The position numbers and the translations under genes are program-made. This document shows positions 1 to 50,078 of a DNA stretch of 64,000 nt, piece after piece. This DNA comes from Desulfonatronum lacustre DSM 10312 (GTDB lineage: Bacteria; Desulfobacterota; Desulfovibrionia; Desulfovibrionales; Desulfonatronaceae): NCBI RefSeq assembly GCF_000519265.1, contig NZ_KI912608.1, forward strand, positions 943,665 through 1,007,664. The letters are read 5' to 3'. Under the pieces are notes generated by a model, which did not search any database, was not told the origin of the DNA, and worked only from the letters and a program-made list of their open reading frames with translations. Every line of letters starts with the position of its first letter. The first letter of the stretch is position 1.

Positions 1-386
1 GTGTACGGCTCTTCGCCGGTGGAACAGCCCGCGGACCAGATGTGCAGGCTGCGTTTCCCTTCCTTGCGAAGTCGCTCCAGTATCCGAGGCAGAACGATGT
101 TCTGAAAGACGTTGAGTTGCGGTGGGTTGCGATAAAAACTGGTTTCATTGGTGGTGATGACCTCGAACAGCCTGGGCAGTTCCTGACGGCGTCCGCCGTC
201 GTATTTCAGAAAGTGAAGATACTCTCCGTAATCCTTCAGGTTCAGATTCTTGACGCGGTTGGAAAGCCTGTTCTCCAGAAGATATTTCCGGTTGTCCGGG
301 ATATAAATTCCGCTTTGCGCATAAATGAAATCTCGAAGTTGTTGAAACTCGGCATCCTTGATGTCCACCGTTCCCGCGGCGTTCAT
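1..386 (-). CDS. cheR: Chemotaxis protein methyltransferase CheR, N-terminal part (runs off the window)
   Basis: CheR transfers methyl groups from S-adenosylmethionine to glutamates of chemoreceptors. About 128 residues are visible. They comprise the all-alpha N-terminal domain, including the NETSFYRN segment typical of CheR, and the beginning of the methyltransferase fold with IWSAGCSTGEEPY, the SAM-binding motif I of this family. The ATG at 386 follows an AGGAAGG-type ribosome binding site that lies across the end of the preceding HEAT-repeat gene. That gene stops only 8 bases upstream, so the two are almost certainly co-transcribed. The C-terminal half lies outside the window. Confidence 0.93.
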   Translation of the reverse strand, partial: MNAAGTVDIKDAEFQQLRDFIYAQSGIYIPDNRKYLLENRLSNRVKNLNLKDYGEYLHFLKYDGGRRQELPRLFEVITTNETSFYRNPPQLNVFQNIVLPRILERLRKEGKRSLHIWSAGCSTGEEPY

Positions 387-33804: not shown

Positions 33805-33939
33805 GCCTGCTCCTCGACGGTTGTTGAGATTTCCGTTTCAATCACCCTTTCGGTTCCACGCATCATGTTCCCGGCAGCGTGTCAATACGGCTCGCCGATT
33901 TCCTCAGGGCAGATTGTTCTCGATCCTCACCCGTTATCT

Positions 33940-34055
33940 GAATCGGCATCGAAATCGTGATCGAAGTCGAGCATCATGTCCAAGAAAATGCCGTATCAGA
34001 GGGTGATGTACAACATTTTCCGATTTCGATTTCAATCGCGATTTGGATTTTGATG
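33940..34055. repeat. Degenerate ATCG(A/G)-hexamer repeat region
   Basis: AATCGGCATCGAAATCGTGA with its continuation, and downstream CGATTTCGATTTCAATCGCG, are short-period (about 6 bp) ATCGNN runs in inverted orientation. They could form a large imperfect hairpin. The composition resembles the cores of the elements at 41416-41552 and 49180-49310, but the flanks of those elements are not recognisable here. The 33805-34507 gap holds this and an ATPase remnant. Confidence 0.55.
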
Positions 34056-34081
34056 AGAACAGATTTGCCCTGCCGATTTCC

Positions 34082-41336: not shown

Positions 41337-41415
41337 GGAGTACTCGGACAAAGTTTAATTTAAAAGTTTGGAACTGCTCAGCTTCTTCGCAGTATACGCA
41401 GCCTGGATAGCGTGA

Positions 41416-41552
41416 TTGCTCCGGCAATCGGTATCGGTATCGGAGTCGGAATCGAAACAAGAAGAATTTAGAACGCATCCCAGCGTTTTCGATCCCGATA
41501 CCGATCCCGACTCCGACCCCGGTAACGGTATTACTCAATGCTGAATAGTTAC
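41416..41552 (+). repeat. Dispersed ATCGG-hexamer element, copy A
   Basis: A 137-bp element begins TTGCTCCGGCAATCGG and ends ATGCTGAATAGTTAC. It contains an ATCGGN run, a spacer with GAACGC.TCCCAGCGTT, and then a run of GATCCCGATACCGA type, the inverse of the first. The same flanks, spacer and order occur at 49180-49310, so this is a mobile or dispersed unit able to fold into a large hairpin. It lies between hpt and the acetyltransferase gene. Confidence 0.85.
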
Positions 41553-41559
41553 CAAAAAA

Positions 41560-42036
41560 TTACATATCTATGGCCATGGCGATTTCGTCGCAGTCCGGGA
41601 ACTTGGGACAGTGCAGGCAATCGGCCCAGACCTTCTGGGGCAGATTGTCCTTGCTGACCACCTGAAATCCGATCCGTTCGAAAAAAGTCGCTTGATAAGT
41701 CAGTGTGAACACTCGATAAATACCCAAGGTGATGGCGTCGCTCAGACACGCTTCCACCAGTCGGCGCCCCCAGCCCTGTCCTCGGCACTCCGAGGCCACG
41801 GCCAGGGAGCGGACTTCGGCTAAATCCTCCCAGGCGATGCTCAAAGCGCAGCATCCGAGAATCGCCCCGCCCTGGCTCGGGGCCAGGACGAAAAAGTCCC
41901 GCAGGTGGCTGTAGAGTTGATTGTAGGAGCGCGGCAACAACAGGCCCTGCTTGGAACAGTCCATCAACAAGCCGTGGATGGTGCGGACGTCCTGAATCCG
42001 GGCCTTACGGATGTAAATCGCGGAGGGTTCGGTCAT
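41560..42036 (-). CDS. GNAT N-acetyltransferase, N-acetylglutamate synthase-like
   Basis: The 158-residue protein is a single GNAT domain with the acetyl-CoA-binding signature ECRGQGWGRRLVEACL. Its beginning (IRKARIQDVRTIHGLL) and end (WADCLHCPKFPDCDEIAMAI) resemble the short ArgA-type N-acetylglutamate synthases that start arginine synthesis in several deltaproteobacteria. That assignment is likely but not certain. The ATG at 42036 overlaps the stop of the upstream thioredoxin-like gene (ATGA), so the pair is translationally coupled. Confidence 0.8.
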   Translation of the reverse strand: MTEPSAIYIRKARIQDVRTIHGLLMDCSKQGLLLPRSYNQLYSHLRDFFVLAPSQGGAILGCCALSIAWEDLAEVRSLAVASECRGQGWGRRLVEACLSDAITLGIYRVFTLTYQATFFERIGFQVVSKDNLPQKVWADCLHCPKFPDCDEIAMAIDM

Positions 42037-42524
42037 GGGGTGATTAAGCGGCCAACGTCCTGGCACAGTGTTTCGGGGGATGTCAGGCCTTCCTCGACGA
42101 TCACCAATGCTCCGGCGGCGTCGTAGACATGCAACAAGGGGATGGCCCCTACGCCCAGTTCGGCGCCCAGGCCGTCTTCAGCCAGGAATATTGGATAGTT
42201 CAATTGATTGACCTTCAGAAAACTGCGCAGGGTTGCGGGGTTGAAGTCCAGGGAAATACCGAGCATGGCCACCTCTTCCTCGGAAAAACTGTCTCGGCAT
42301 GCCATCAGCGCCGGCAACTTTTTGCGGCACGGCCCGCACCAAGTGGCCCAAAAATCCACGACCACCACCTTGCCTCTCTGCTCACGCAAAAAATCGAAAA
42401 ACCCCTGAACGTCCATTACCGGCAAATCATCGGTCCTCTCGACTTCATTGGCCCAGCAGGCCCGAAACGGAGTCGAAGCGACCAAGGCCAGCAACAGGAG
42501 CGCGGGAAGTAGCATTTTTTTCAT
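42033..42524 (-). CDS. TlpA-like thioredoxin family protein, exported
   Basis: The 163-residue protein has an N-terminal signal peptide (MKKMLLPALLLLALVAS) and a TlpA/ResA-like thioredoxin domain with the redox motif FWATWCGPCRKKLPAL and the cis-Pro region GVGAIPLLHVYD. It should be a periplasmic thiol-disulfide reductant, for example for cytochrome c maturation. The ATG at 42524 was preferred because AAGGGAG lies six bases upstream; the ATG at 42530 touches that site. It ends in an ATGA overlap with the acetyltransferase gene and follows metH by 38 bp. Confidence 0.88.
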   Translation of the reverse strand: MKKMLLPALLLLALVASTPFRACWANEVERTDDLPVMDVQGFFDFLREQRGKVVVVDFWATWCGPCRKKLPALMACRDSFSEEEVAMLGISLDFNPATLRSFLKVNQLNYPIFLAEDGLGAELGVGAIPLLHVYDAAGALVIVEEGLTSPETLCQDVGRLITP

Positions 42525-47308: not shown

Positions 47309-49018
47309 GTGACCGCCCATTCGCCGCTGAAGTGTCTTTTTTTGCTGTTCGGCCTGGCCTTCGCCTTTTCCATGGCCGCATGCGCCCCGAAGGTTACATT
47401 CACTCCGGAACCGTTCCCGGCCGCGACCATCGCCGACCCGGAGCATGAACTGACGCCCTCGGCCCAGGCCGTGCTGGCCTACCTGGAAGCCCAGGACCTG
47501 GCCCGTACGGACGACCAGGAAGGCGCCCGTGAAGCCTTGGCCCTGGCCTTGGCCCTGGACCCTTCGCCCTTTTTGGCAATGGAACTGGCCAACTCCTACT
47601 GGCGGGAAGGCCGAAACGCTGAAGCCAGGACGGTTTTGCGCCGCTCCATGGAATCGTTTCCTGAAGACCAAACCCTCCCCTCCGCCCTGGTCAACACCTA
47701 CCTTACCGACGACATGGTGGAGGAGGCCATCGCGACCATGGACGAATACCTGCGACGCCACCCTCGGGATTGGGCCATGCGCCGGAACATGGCCGCCCTG
47801 CTCTTGCAGTATTCCCGCTTTTCCCAAGCCGCGGACGTGCTCCAGGTCATCCCCGAATCGGAACGGACGGCCGAGGTGTTATTGTTGCTGGCCAGAAGCA
47901 ACTCCGGGCTCGGGTTGGTCCGCCAGACGGAAGAGTTTCTCAAGAAGGCCCTGGAGCAAGACTCGAATTTCCTGGAGGCCATGGCCGAATTGGCCTTTTT
48001 GTATGAAAGCGAAGGCGACTTGGTTCAAGCCGAGGAAACCTACAGTCGCATTCTCGACCTCCGCCCGGACGCGGACGAAATCCTGCTGCGCATGATCCAG
48101 GTCAACATCAAGCTGAACCAACCGGACAAGGCGCTTTCCTTCGCCCTGGGGCAGGAGGGACGGGAAAGCTTCATCCTGGAAGTCGCATTGCTCTTCATCC
48201 GCGAAAACCTCTTCCAGGAAGCCGGTGCCGTGCTCGACGCCCTGCCCGAAGAGGACGGTTTGCCGGAGGCCGACTTTTACCGCGCGTTGGTCGCTTACGA
48301 AGGGGACAATGACCCGGAACAAGCCCTGTTTTACCTGGGCAGGATTCCGGAAGACCATCCGCACTACGCCCGGGCTCTGAGCTTTCAGGGTTATTTGCTG
48401 CTGCAACTGGATCGCCACGAGGACGCCCGGCAACTGGCCCGGGAAGGGCAAGACCTGTTTTCGAACATGAGTGATTTTCTGCTGCTGGAGGCCGAAATTC
48501 TGTTGGGTGAGGACGAAATCTCCCAGGCCTCAAGCCTGCTGGAGATCGCTCGCCAAAAGTGGCCCGGAGACACCGACGTGCTCTATCGCCTGGGTTTTCT
48601 TCAGGAACAGATGGGCCGACGCCAGGAGGCCCTGCGGACCATGGAGGAGATCATCGTCCTGGATCCGGACCATGCCGAGGCCCTGAATTTCATCGGCTAC
48701 ACCCTGGCCCAGGAAGAGCGCGAACTGGAACGGGCCCTGGTGCTCATCGAACGTTCTCTGCAACTCAAGCCCGGCAGCGGCCACATCATCGACTCCCTGG
48801 CCTGGGTGCACTTCCAGCTGGGCAATCTGGATCTGGCCTGGCGGCACATTCAGTCCGCGGTGGAAATCATGGCCGACGATCCGATCATCTGGGAACACTA
48901 CGGCGACATCGCCGCAGCCCTCGGAAAAACCGCCGAAGCCCGCAAGGGCTACCGCAACGCCCTGCGCCACCACCCCCAAGATCCTGACGCGATACGGCAA
49001 AAGTTGAACGCGCTTTGA
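47309..49018 (+). CDS. TPR-repeat lipoprotein
   Basis: The 569-residue protein has a lipoprotein signal peptide (CLFLLFGLAFAFSMAACAPK, lipobox MAAC) followed by about 14 tetratricopeptide-like helical repeats. These include LGFLQEQMGRRQEALRTMEE and DSLAWVHFQLGNLDLAWRHI. It is probably anchored in the outer membrane facing the periplasm and acts as an assembly scaffold. Translation begins at GTG 47309. The next gene downstream also encodes a lipoprotein. Confidence 0.88.
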   Translation: MTAHSPLKCLFLLFGLAFAFSMAACAPKVTFTPEPFPAATIADPEHELTPSAQAVLAYLEAQDLARTDDQEGAREALALALALDPSPFLAMELANSYWREGRNAEARTVLRRSMESFPEDQTLPSALVNTYLTDDMVEEAIATMDEYLRRHPRDWAMRRNMAALLLQYSRFSQAADVLQVIPESERTAEVLLLLARSNSGLGLVRQTEEFLKKALEQDSNFLEAMAELAFLYESEGDLVQAEETYSRILDLRPDADEILLRMIQVNIKLNQPDKALSFALGQEGRESFILEVALLFIRENLFQEAGAVLDALPEEDGLPEADFYRALVAYEGDNDPEQALFYLGRIPEDHPHYARALSFQGYLLLQLDRHEDARQLAREGQDLFSNMSDFLLLEAEILLGEDEISQASSLLEIARQKWPGDTDVLYRLGFLQEQMGRRQEALRTMEEIIVLDPDHAEALNFIGYTLAQEERELERALVLIERSLQLKPGSGHIIDSLAWVHFQLGNLDLAWRHIQSAVEIMADDPIIWEHYGDIAAALGKTAEARKGYRNALRHHPQDPDAIRQKLNAL

Positions 49019-49179
49019 GAGTCGATCCGGATCGTCATATCCGAGAGGGGCACCCCTCATGATTCCTGTCGTGCGCGTCGTTTCGTGGATTCGGGCACGC
49101 CTGCTTCCGGCGTCGGCCGCTTGCGCCGGAACGACTCAAAAACTTGTGGGTATCTACTCAGCACATTTTGTGTCCGCCC

Positions 49180-49310
49180 TTGCTCCGGCAATCGGAGTCG
49201 GGGTCGCTATCGGAATCGGAATCGGAACAGGAAAAATTTTGAACGCTTCCCAGCGTTGTCGATCCCGATACCGACTCCGGCAACGGTAGTACTCTATGCT
49301 GAATAGTTAC
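49180..49310 (+). repeat. Dispersed ATCGG-hexamer element, copy B
   Basis: This 131-bp copy starts TTGCTCCGGCAATCGG and ends ATGCTGAATAGTTAC, with the same spacer (GAACGCTTCCCAGCGTT) and inverted hexamer runs as copy A at 41416-41552, in the same orientation. Its last 15 bases supply the start codon and first residues (MLNSY) of the lipoprotein at 49296. Confidence 0.85.
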
Positions 49311-50078
49311 AAATTACCTTGGGTCCTGCTCACCGTCTGCGCCCTGCTGAGCGCTTGCGGACCGAAGCCGTTGCCGCCCGGATATGACGACCCGGACCGA
49401 GCCTCGGTCGTCTGGTCGCTGTTCCAAACGTCGTTCGTTCAGGACTGTCACCCCGAGGATTTCTCCCTGCGGGCCAGCGTCAACTTCTCCGCTCCGGACC
49501 GACACTCCCGATTCATTGTTTCCATGTGGGGTCGGACGGACTTTCCCATCCGCTTGGACGTTCAGGCCGGCGTGGGCGCCATGCTGGCCCACTGGCGGGA
49601 GGACCGCGACGGATGGCTCGGATATCTTCCCGCTTCCAGGGAGGCCTACGTCGCGAAGACGGTCCAGGAAGGCGCGCGGACCACGGGGCTGTTCATGCCG
49701 GTGCGCCTGGACGCCCTGGCTCAGATCTTTCTCGGATGTTGGCAAACTCTCGTTCCCTCGGAATACGAGGCCGTCCGCCTGGTCGACGATATGCTGGAAT
49801 TCCACGTGACCGGGCATTTCACGCCCCTGATCCTGGTTCTGGCGTTCGACGGGCGGCCAGCGTCCGTACGCGGTCCGGACCACGGCGGCTGGACCGTGTC
49901 CGTGGACCAGTGGGAAAGCGACACTCCTTCCAGGCCGCGCCGCGTCAGCCTGGTCCAGGGAGATCAGTCCGCGGTGATCCGCGTCCAGCGCCTGGAAACG
50001 GCCGTTGAGCCGTGGCGGGCCGAAGACTTGCGACTGGACGTGCCCCCCGGTTCCACCGTATGGACCGTCCCAAATTGA
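49296..50078 (+). CDS. Lipoprotein of unknown function (LolB/DUF4292-like size and context)
   Basis: The 260-residue product has a lipoprotein signal (LPWVLLTVCALLSACGPK, lipobox LSAC) and a mature domain rich in beta-strand patterns (FIVSMWGRTDFPIRLDVQAG; VRLVDDMLEFHVTGHFTPLI). This is reminiscent of LolB-like or DUF4292 lipoproteins that follow a TPR lipoprotein in other genomes, but I cannot confirm the family. The only start codon before the signal peptide is the ATG at 49296, which lies inside the dispersed repeat. There is no strong ribosome binding site. Confidence 0.72.
   Translation: MLNSYKLPWVLLTVCALLSACGPKPLPPGYDDPDRASVVWSLFQTSFVQDCHPEDFSLRASVNFSAPDRHSRFIVSMWGRTDFPIRLDVQAGVGAMLAHWREDRDGWLGYLPASREAYVAKTVQEGARTTGLFMPVRLDALAQIFLGCWQTLVPSEYEAVRLVDDMLEFHVTGHFTPLILVLAFDGRPASVRGPDHGGWTVSVDQWESDTPSRPRRVSLVQGDQSAVIRVQRLETAVEPWRAEDLRLDVPPGSTVWTVPN

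Follow-up and report, generated by a model that had tools for sequence, protein, structure and literature searches.

What provides the start of a gene when a repeated element lies across its 5' end? The question is raised by a lipoprotein gene in a stretch of 64,000 nucleotides from Desulfonatronum lacustre DSM 10312 (contig NZ_KI912608.1, positions 943,665 to 1,007,664). This whole stretch is called the window hereafter, and its positions are counted from its first letter. The initiator codon and first residues of the gene, MLNSY, coincide with the right end of a dispersed element, of which the window holds two copies, A and B. We propose that copy B, a miniature inverted-repeat transposable element (MITE) in the 5' region of the gene, probably supplies a new start, which would be fed by ribosomes that set out from the old start, stop inside the element and restart. 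The features concerned are the following.

47309..49018, forward strand: upstream gene of the presumed operon, TPR-like protein (named by reading its sequence)
49059..49289, forward strand: ancestral start and 76-codon upstream frame, in the frame of the lipoprotein and running into the element up to TAG 49287-49289
49150..49310, forward strand: MITE copy B, 161 bp, full length (model positions 1-173)
49150..49163, forward strand: left terminal inverted repeat of copy B, GTATCTACTCAGCA
49239..49289, forward strand: possible mini-leader frame in the element, 16 codons counted from TTG and closed by TAG, 6 nt ahead of ATG 49296
49296..49310, forward strand: element-supplied ATG and MLNSY codons of the lipoprotein
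49297..49310, forward strand: right terminal inverted repeat of copy B, TGCTGAATAGTTAC
49296..50078, forward strand: lipoprotein gene, 260 residues, Cys21
41415..41552, forward strand: MITE copy A, model positions 30-173 only, left terminus missing or degenerate

The 3.76 Mb genome of this haloalkaliphilic sulfate reducer lies on one contig, and the copy counts below refer to the genome stretches searched. With positions 49170-49320 as query and 40 of 161 first-look candidates scored, at least 49 matches were obtained, of which at least 40 cover at least 105 of the 151 bases. The right terminus occurs at 87 sites with at most one mismatch, 24 of them exact, and the left terminus, under the same mismatch limit, at no fewer than 104 sites, including right ends that match too; the reversed control sequences gave no site for either. 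The element announced by the original prediction is thus indeed a dispersed repeat. An alignment of 31 copies shows a sharp left edge at the left terminal repeat in 30 of them, copy A being the exception, and an edge at the right terminal repeat in nearly all. The two termini are imperfect inverted repeats of 14 bp (12 of 14 bases complementary), and the interior consists of two mutually inverse hexamer runs, variable in number, and a short spacer hairpin.

A profile search with a model of 173 positions gave 93 non-overlapping matches. The 80 that score above 100 bits were taken as well-preserved copies, and 74 of these have both ends within 4 positions of the model ends. Copies are 149-192 bp long, numerous, dispersed and without a transposase gene inside. 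An 8-bp target duplication, identical at 7 or more positions, flanks 49 of the 80 copies, compared with 0.9 expected when flanks are shuffled among copies, and the flanks of 38 copies are identical at all 8 positions; the same test at 7, 9 and 10 bp detects 7, 3 and 1 copies. Terminal inverted repeats and duplications of fixed length therefore identify a transposed non-autonomous element, that is, a MITE. Among 61 genomes searched, 14 match the element: our genome and those that we call G001, G003, G005 and G007, all of the genus, carry most of it, and nine others contain partial matches.

Some of what had been said of the two copies in the window needs correction. They had been placed at 41416-41552 and 49180-49310: the right ends are exact, and copy B starts at 49150, not 49180. 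The likeness on both sides holds within those limits, copy A being without the left terminus of copy B. The last bases of copy A had been said to lead nowhere; its terminal ATG at 41538 does open 39 codons, which run antisense into the gene at 41560-42066.

Three stretches depart from this structure. Copies at 607375-607613 and 824746-824941 of the genome have an expanded hexamer arm, which suggests a variable-number repeat inside the element. The copy at genome positions 1252062-1252499 is split (model positions 1-59 and 89-173, minus strand) with about 295 bp between the pieces, and was possibly itself hit by an insertion. The window also holds a weak match to the element model at 33899-34070 (about 20 bits); there, hexamer-like runs form an inverted pair and the terminal repeats are missing.

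Start of the lipoprotein gene

The last 15 bases of copy B (ATGCTGAATAGTTAC), which encode the initiator Met and the residues MLNSY, are the right terminus of the element and recur at many unrelated insertions: ATG 49296 is followed by CTG AAT AGT TAC and then by the gene proper, KLPWVLLTVCALLSAC. Allowing up to 3 mismatches, the 30 bases after the element have a single site in the genome. Matches to the lipoprotein were found in 56 genomes besides our own, and 14 orthologous loci were inspected. These loci support a start recruited from the element, as originally proposed: none of them contains MLNSY, and in the closest orthologue, that of G007 (91% identical), the alignment begins at K6, directly behind the codons that the element supplies. 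In the nearest element-free orthologue, in G005 (88% identical protein), a possible start ATGATTTATGTC lies shortly after the stop of the upstream gene; the 3' end of the TPR-like gene precedes the lipoprotein orthologues too. The counterpart of this start remains in the window at 49059 and is also present in G007. The MITE sits in the signal-peptide region of the gene, about 30 codons past the original start.

The body of the gene is under purifying selection. Omega is 0.154 against G007 over 255 codons and 0.259 against G005, and our own branch carries 13 synonymous and 6 non-synonymous changes (P = 8e-5 on the assumption that three in four changes would be non-synonymous). The protein carries the motif LSAC with Cys21, which we take to be a lipobox. 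No Pfam match was obtained for our own member; a LolB identity was considered and set aside, as the match is weak and present in 2 of 13 aligned relatives (best E 0.018). A search for solved relatives gave none, the best hit being a ribonuclease construct at E 0.2.

At the same point of the gene, G007 has about 128 bp of other DNA (locus L032, reverse strand, upstream of the match 1028-1792). This repeat-like DNA differs from the MITE, reads SVIPTQVGIQ in an open frame and matches other loci of the genus in parts; no stop interrupts the frame between the old start and the gene. The locus thus seems to have been hit more than once, and the ancestor of our genome and G007 may already have carried an insertion at this site. 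As a separate observation, the orphaned stretch 49059-49149 shows 5 differences from G007 over 91 positions, each of them non-synonymous; for the gene body, synonymous divergence amounts to 0.277. As DNA, this stretch is more conserved than expected for neutral sequence.

The original prediction held that no other start codon is available ahead of the signal peptide, and this proved right for ATG, GTG and TTG. The in-frame starts upstream (TTG 49239, GTG 49170, 49146 and 49071, ATG 49059) are all cut off by the TAG at 49287-49289, which lies inside the element, in the same frame and 6 nt before ATG 49296; the next in-frame start downstream is a TTG at codon 26, past Cys21. Among 71 copies with the standard right end, copy B alone has TAG at this triplet, the others having CAT (28), AAT (27), TAT (6) or other triplets (9). 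The frame was therefore probably open in copy B formerly and closed by one base change.

We infer from these data that ATG 49296 is the start in use. The gene body would have gained it because the ATG of the right repeat lies in the sole frame that is stop-free there. Ribosomes would start at the old site, 49059, which is preceded by the Shine-Dalgarno-like sequence GAGAGGGG (-6.7 kcal/mol), and would translate into the element. Translation would end at TAG 49287-49289 and, through translational coupling, begin again 6 nt downstream at ATG 49296, giving the new lipoprotein start, MLNSY followed by KLPWVLLTVCALLSAC. The base change that created the TAG may have been favoured, as it removes a long N-terminal extension.

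A second gene and the ends of the element

Another gene of the genome likewise appears to owe its start to a copy of the element. The copy at genome positions 3701398-3701564, 93% identical to copy B and with flanks that agree at 6 of 8 positions, disrupts a lipid A acyltransferase gene (PF03279, E 4.5e-12) at codon 8. The native ATG is kept and overlaps the stop of the upstream gene (ATGA). From it the frame crosses the element and ends at the TAG of ATGCTGAATAG, whose first base lies 8 bases past the A of the new ATG; from this new ATG the gene body continues as MLNSS-ASSSWSSRS. The corresponding loci of G005 (93%) and G007 (92%) are without the element and have ATG at the native site. This gene is also under purifying selection (omega 0.159 and 0.099; 23.5 synonymous against 4.5 non-synonymous changes on our own branch).

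The frames leading out of the element were counted over the copies. At the right exit the start codon is ATG in copy B and GTG in most copies; its frame alone is stop-free in the terminal repeat, the others reading TGA (in ATGCTGA) and TAG (in ATGCTGAATAG). For the 74 copies with ATG or GTG, stops from -40 to +15 relative to the start codon were called late. In 43 copies the start frame crosses the whole element without a stop; it stops earlier in 27 and late in 4. For the other two frames the late stops number 37 and 45, the earlier ones 36 and 28, and one copy is open in each. Frames that are open or stop late thus amount to 131 of 222, compared with 19% in mononucleotide shuffles. The left exit is weaker: over 54 copies the start frame is open in 14 and stops late in 4, the other two stop late in 36 and 18, and the total is 72 of 162. 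Because 131 of the 222 right-exit frames are open or stop late, a ribosome coming from a truncated gene start would often, though not always, reach the restart codon. The scarcity of stops in the interior may be no more than a consequence of the hexamer composition.

A more general idea, which we consider doubtful, is that the right end acts as a ready-made stop-and-restart cassette. A stop-poor interior, two frames ending near an outward start and a third often running through would make an insertion near the 5' end of a coupled gene survivable in one step, and two genes would have been re-started in this manner. At 33 of the 160 ends of the 80 copies, a start in the terminal repeat is followed by 60 or more open codons beyond. 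By eye, two of these frames, those of the lipoprotein and the acyltransferase, lead into a recognisable gene without a start of its own nearby; at most of the 33 ends the frame leads either to nothing recognisable as a gene or to one with a start of its own downstream. In a control by codon usage, 35 of 117 open frames look coding-like (13, 13 and 9 in frames 0, 1 and 2), and inspection by eye of those in frames 1 and 2 found no recognisable start-less gene; the cut was 0.15, so that the lipoprotein, scoring 0.149, falls outside the 35. The copies in G005, G007, G001 and G003 revealed no third case by eye. These were found at 28 loci, which gave 24 rows of at least 60 bits and, two pairs being one copy seen twice, 22 copies.

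Alternative explanations

Several data weigh against a restart at the element. The Shine-Dalgarno energy at ATG 49296 (-3.3 kcal/mol) is that of random 20-mers (mean -3.4). This absence favours coupling over free initiation, and the point is weak because other open reading frame starts listed in the window (39768, 42066) also score near zero; the ribosome-binding strength of the mini-leader is likewise not clearly above background. In the predicted RNA, the bases of ATG 49296 are mostly paired (0.88, 0.94, 0.10), as are those of the old ATG 49059 (0.76, 0.82, 0.96), and the fold of the element has a z-score of -2.58; the new ATG of the acyltransferase is mostly free (0.23, 0.23, 0.19). Predicted structure thus appears equivocal, hiding one ATG and not the other, and would not support coupling in both genes. 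In the acyltransferase case, orthologue alignments begin at residue 4, inside the element-encoded serine-rich part, and another in-frame ATG lies 21 codons upstream, inside the element. Copy B has no target duplication (its flanks match at 2 of 8 positions), so its history may include a further rearrangement: it may have arrived with a deletion or suffered one later. Finally, the start frame shows no enrichment for long open frames: runs of at least 100 codons beyond the 160 ends number 27 in this frame, the lowest count, and 29 and 30 in the other two. For this reason a general role as donor of start codons was ruled out, and the pattern looks like opportunistic rescue, the two cases in this genome being survivors and not a trend.

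These points bear on the other ways of reading the locus. The insertion could have broken the lipoprotein gene, which would then be a young pseudogene with a coincidental in-frame ATG; one in three insertions would by chance keep the gene in the exit frame, no ribosome-binding site precedes the new ATG, and the ancestral start is cut off from the gene. We regard this as unlikely: the 255 codons after the element are intact, with the omega of 0.154 against G007 and the 13 to 6 changes given above, and a protein begun at the new start keeps an entire lipoprotein signal peptide, positively charged at K6. It is also true that selection on both genes may predate the insertions, in which case a recently crippled gene is possible. 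Very improbable, in our view, is translation from the old ATG 49059 that reads through or bypasses the TAG and yields a 79-residue extension. The old start and its frame are intact up to the TAG, in the frame of the lipoprotein, and in G007 the frame is open into the gene; against this stand the TAG itself, found in copy B only, and the old N-terminal piece, whose five differences from G007 are all non-synonymous and do not look protein-constrained. Some 80 residues ahead of a lipoprotein signal peptide would also be unusual.

We give equally little credence to a start at an internal ATG or TTG of the element after CAGGAAAAATT, about 19 or more codons upstream. Such a codon is present in 31 of 77 copies, 20 of them open to the exit start, and in the acyltransferase case the ATG 21 codons upstream is open to the gene; but the frame of the lipoprotein case meets the TAG after 16 codons, and the AGGA-like site (-4.3 kcal/mol) is not clearly above random, 29% of random 20-mers reaching -4.4. 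That the shared 15 bases are gene sequence, the element having carried off part of the lipoprotein gene, has next to no probability. Nothing was found in its favour, the terminus closes dozens of other insertions, many of them immediately flanked by 8-bp duplications, and both the 14 inspected orthologues without MLNSY and the single occurrence of the 30 bases that follow (at up to 3 mismatches) speak against it.

Known systems and the origin of the element

On the sequence evidence, the arrangement would be that of a MITE supplying a start codon and a few residues while the old start is left as a leader frame, with precedents in Yersinia RU-2/YPAL and in the Rickettsia palindromic elements (RPE). 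In the Yersinia reports, N-termini derived from such an element are described in YPO1552 and YP_0349 (residues 4-35 of YP_0349) (Delihas 2007, PMC2759123; PMC2229807). The likeness, drawn from description only, lies in an element-derived protein N-terminus, as proposed here. It differs in that tens of element-frame residues are translated in Yersinia and ATG plus four codons here, and in that the displaced start survives here, with stop and restart side by side. RPE are described as small palindromic mobile repeats tolerated inside protein genes as in-frame insertions, that is, translational fusions (PMC10969869). Here, in contrast, the old frame ends and translation would have to restart; an RPE-type insertion was rejected on finding that the host frame is closed by TAG 49287 and, for the acyltransferase gene, by the TAG within ATGCTGAATAG.

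Likewise, the Coxiella elements QMITE1 and QMITE2 add residues to genes; in that survey, functional genes are hit at their 3' ends, and apparently no element alters the 5' end of a gene whose function is known (PMC5896051). A short leader on mobile DNA that hands ribosomes to a gene without its own initiation region is also known from ORF-11 at attI1 of class 1 integrons, which works by coupling at nearby stop and start codons; it is a site-specific recombination site with a functional Shine-Dalgarno sequence and not a MITE, and the start codon is that of the cassette (PMC8876359). No report of the element or of such an arrangement, and no paper on a MITE in Desulfonatronum, was found in the literature searched, which was mostly without subscription papers.

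With an ancestral start, an inserted element and element-free relatives, the locus offers a comparative case of a mobile element that breaks and replaces the beginning of a gene. If the stop-restart is true, it suggests how small elements can be tolerated at the 5' ends of genes, a position at which the Coxiella survey reported none for genes with known functions (PMC5896051). For annotation, it matters that the N-terminus of either protein is probably encoded by repeat DNA, and that the remnant frame upstream might be taken for a small gene of its own.

A search of our genome revealed no transposase associated with these ends. Among the left ends listed, at least 51 were paired with a right end: 47 pairs lie 149-239 bp apart, one 75 bp and three 3.9-5.3 kb, these three having a 149-190 bp copy or the end of another copy at one or both sides. 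IS66 family elements have GTAA ends and 8-bp duplications, and the MITE resembles them in its 8-bp duplication and in the GTAA at the end of many copies. An IS66-derived MITE was rejected all the same, PF03050 having no match in our genome; the domain is present in 2 of 8 genomes of the genus, at 8 loci, 2 of which have a similar 14-mer that is not established as an insertion sequence end. Our literature search found no paper on an IS66-linked MITE with GTAA ends and an 8-bp duplication. A repetitive extragenic palindromic (REP) element moved by a REP-associated tyrosine transposase (RAYT) was also rejected: REP elements are palindromes of 20-40 bp without target duplication, whereas the element measures about 160-190 bp and has target duplications. 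Five matches to Y1_Tnp (PF01797) occur at 2080209-2082760 and 2812731-2825841 of our genome, and nothing links them to the element. Two loci of G004, L186 and L199, have the first 21 bp of the MITE terminal repeat in common and different interiors, so that several short elements may share one transposase.
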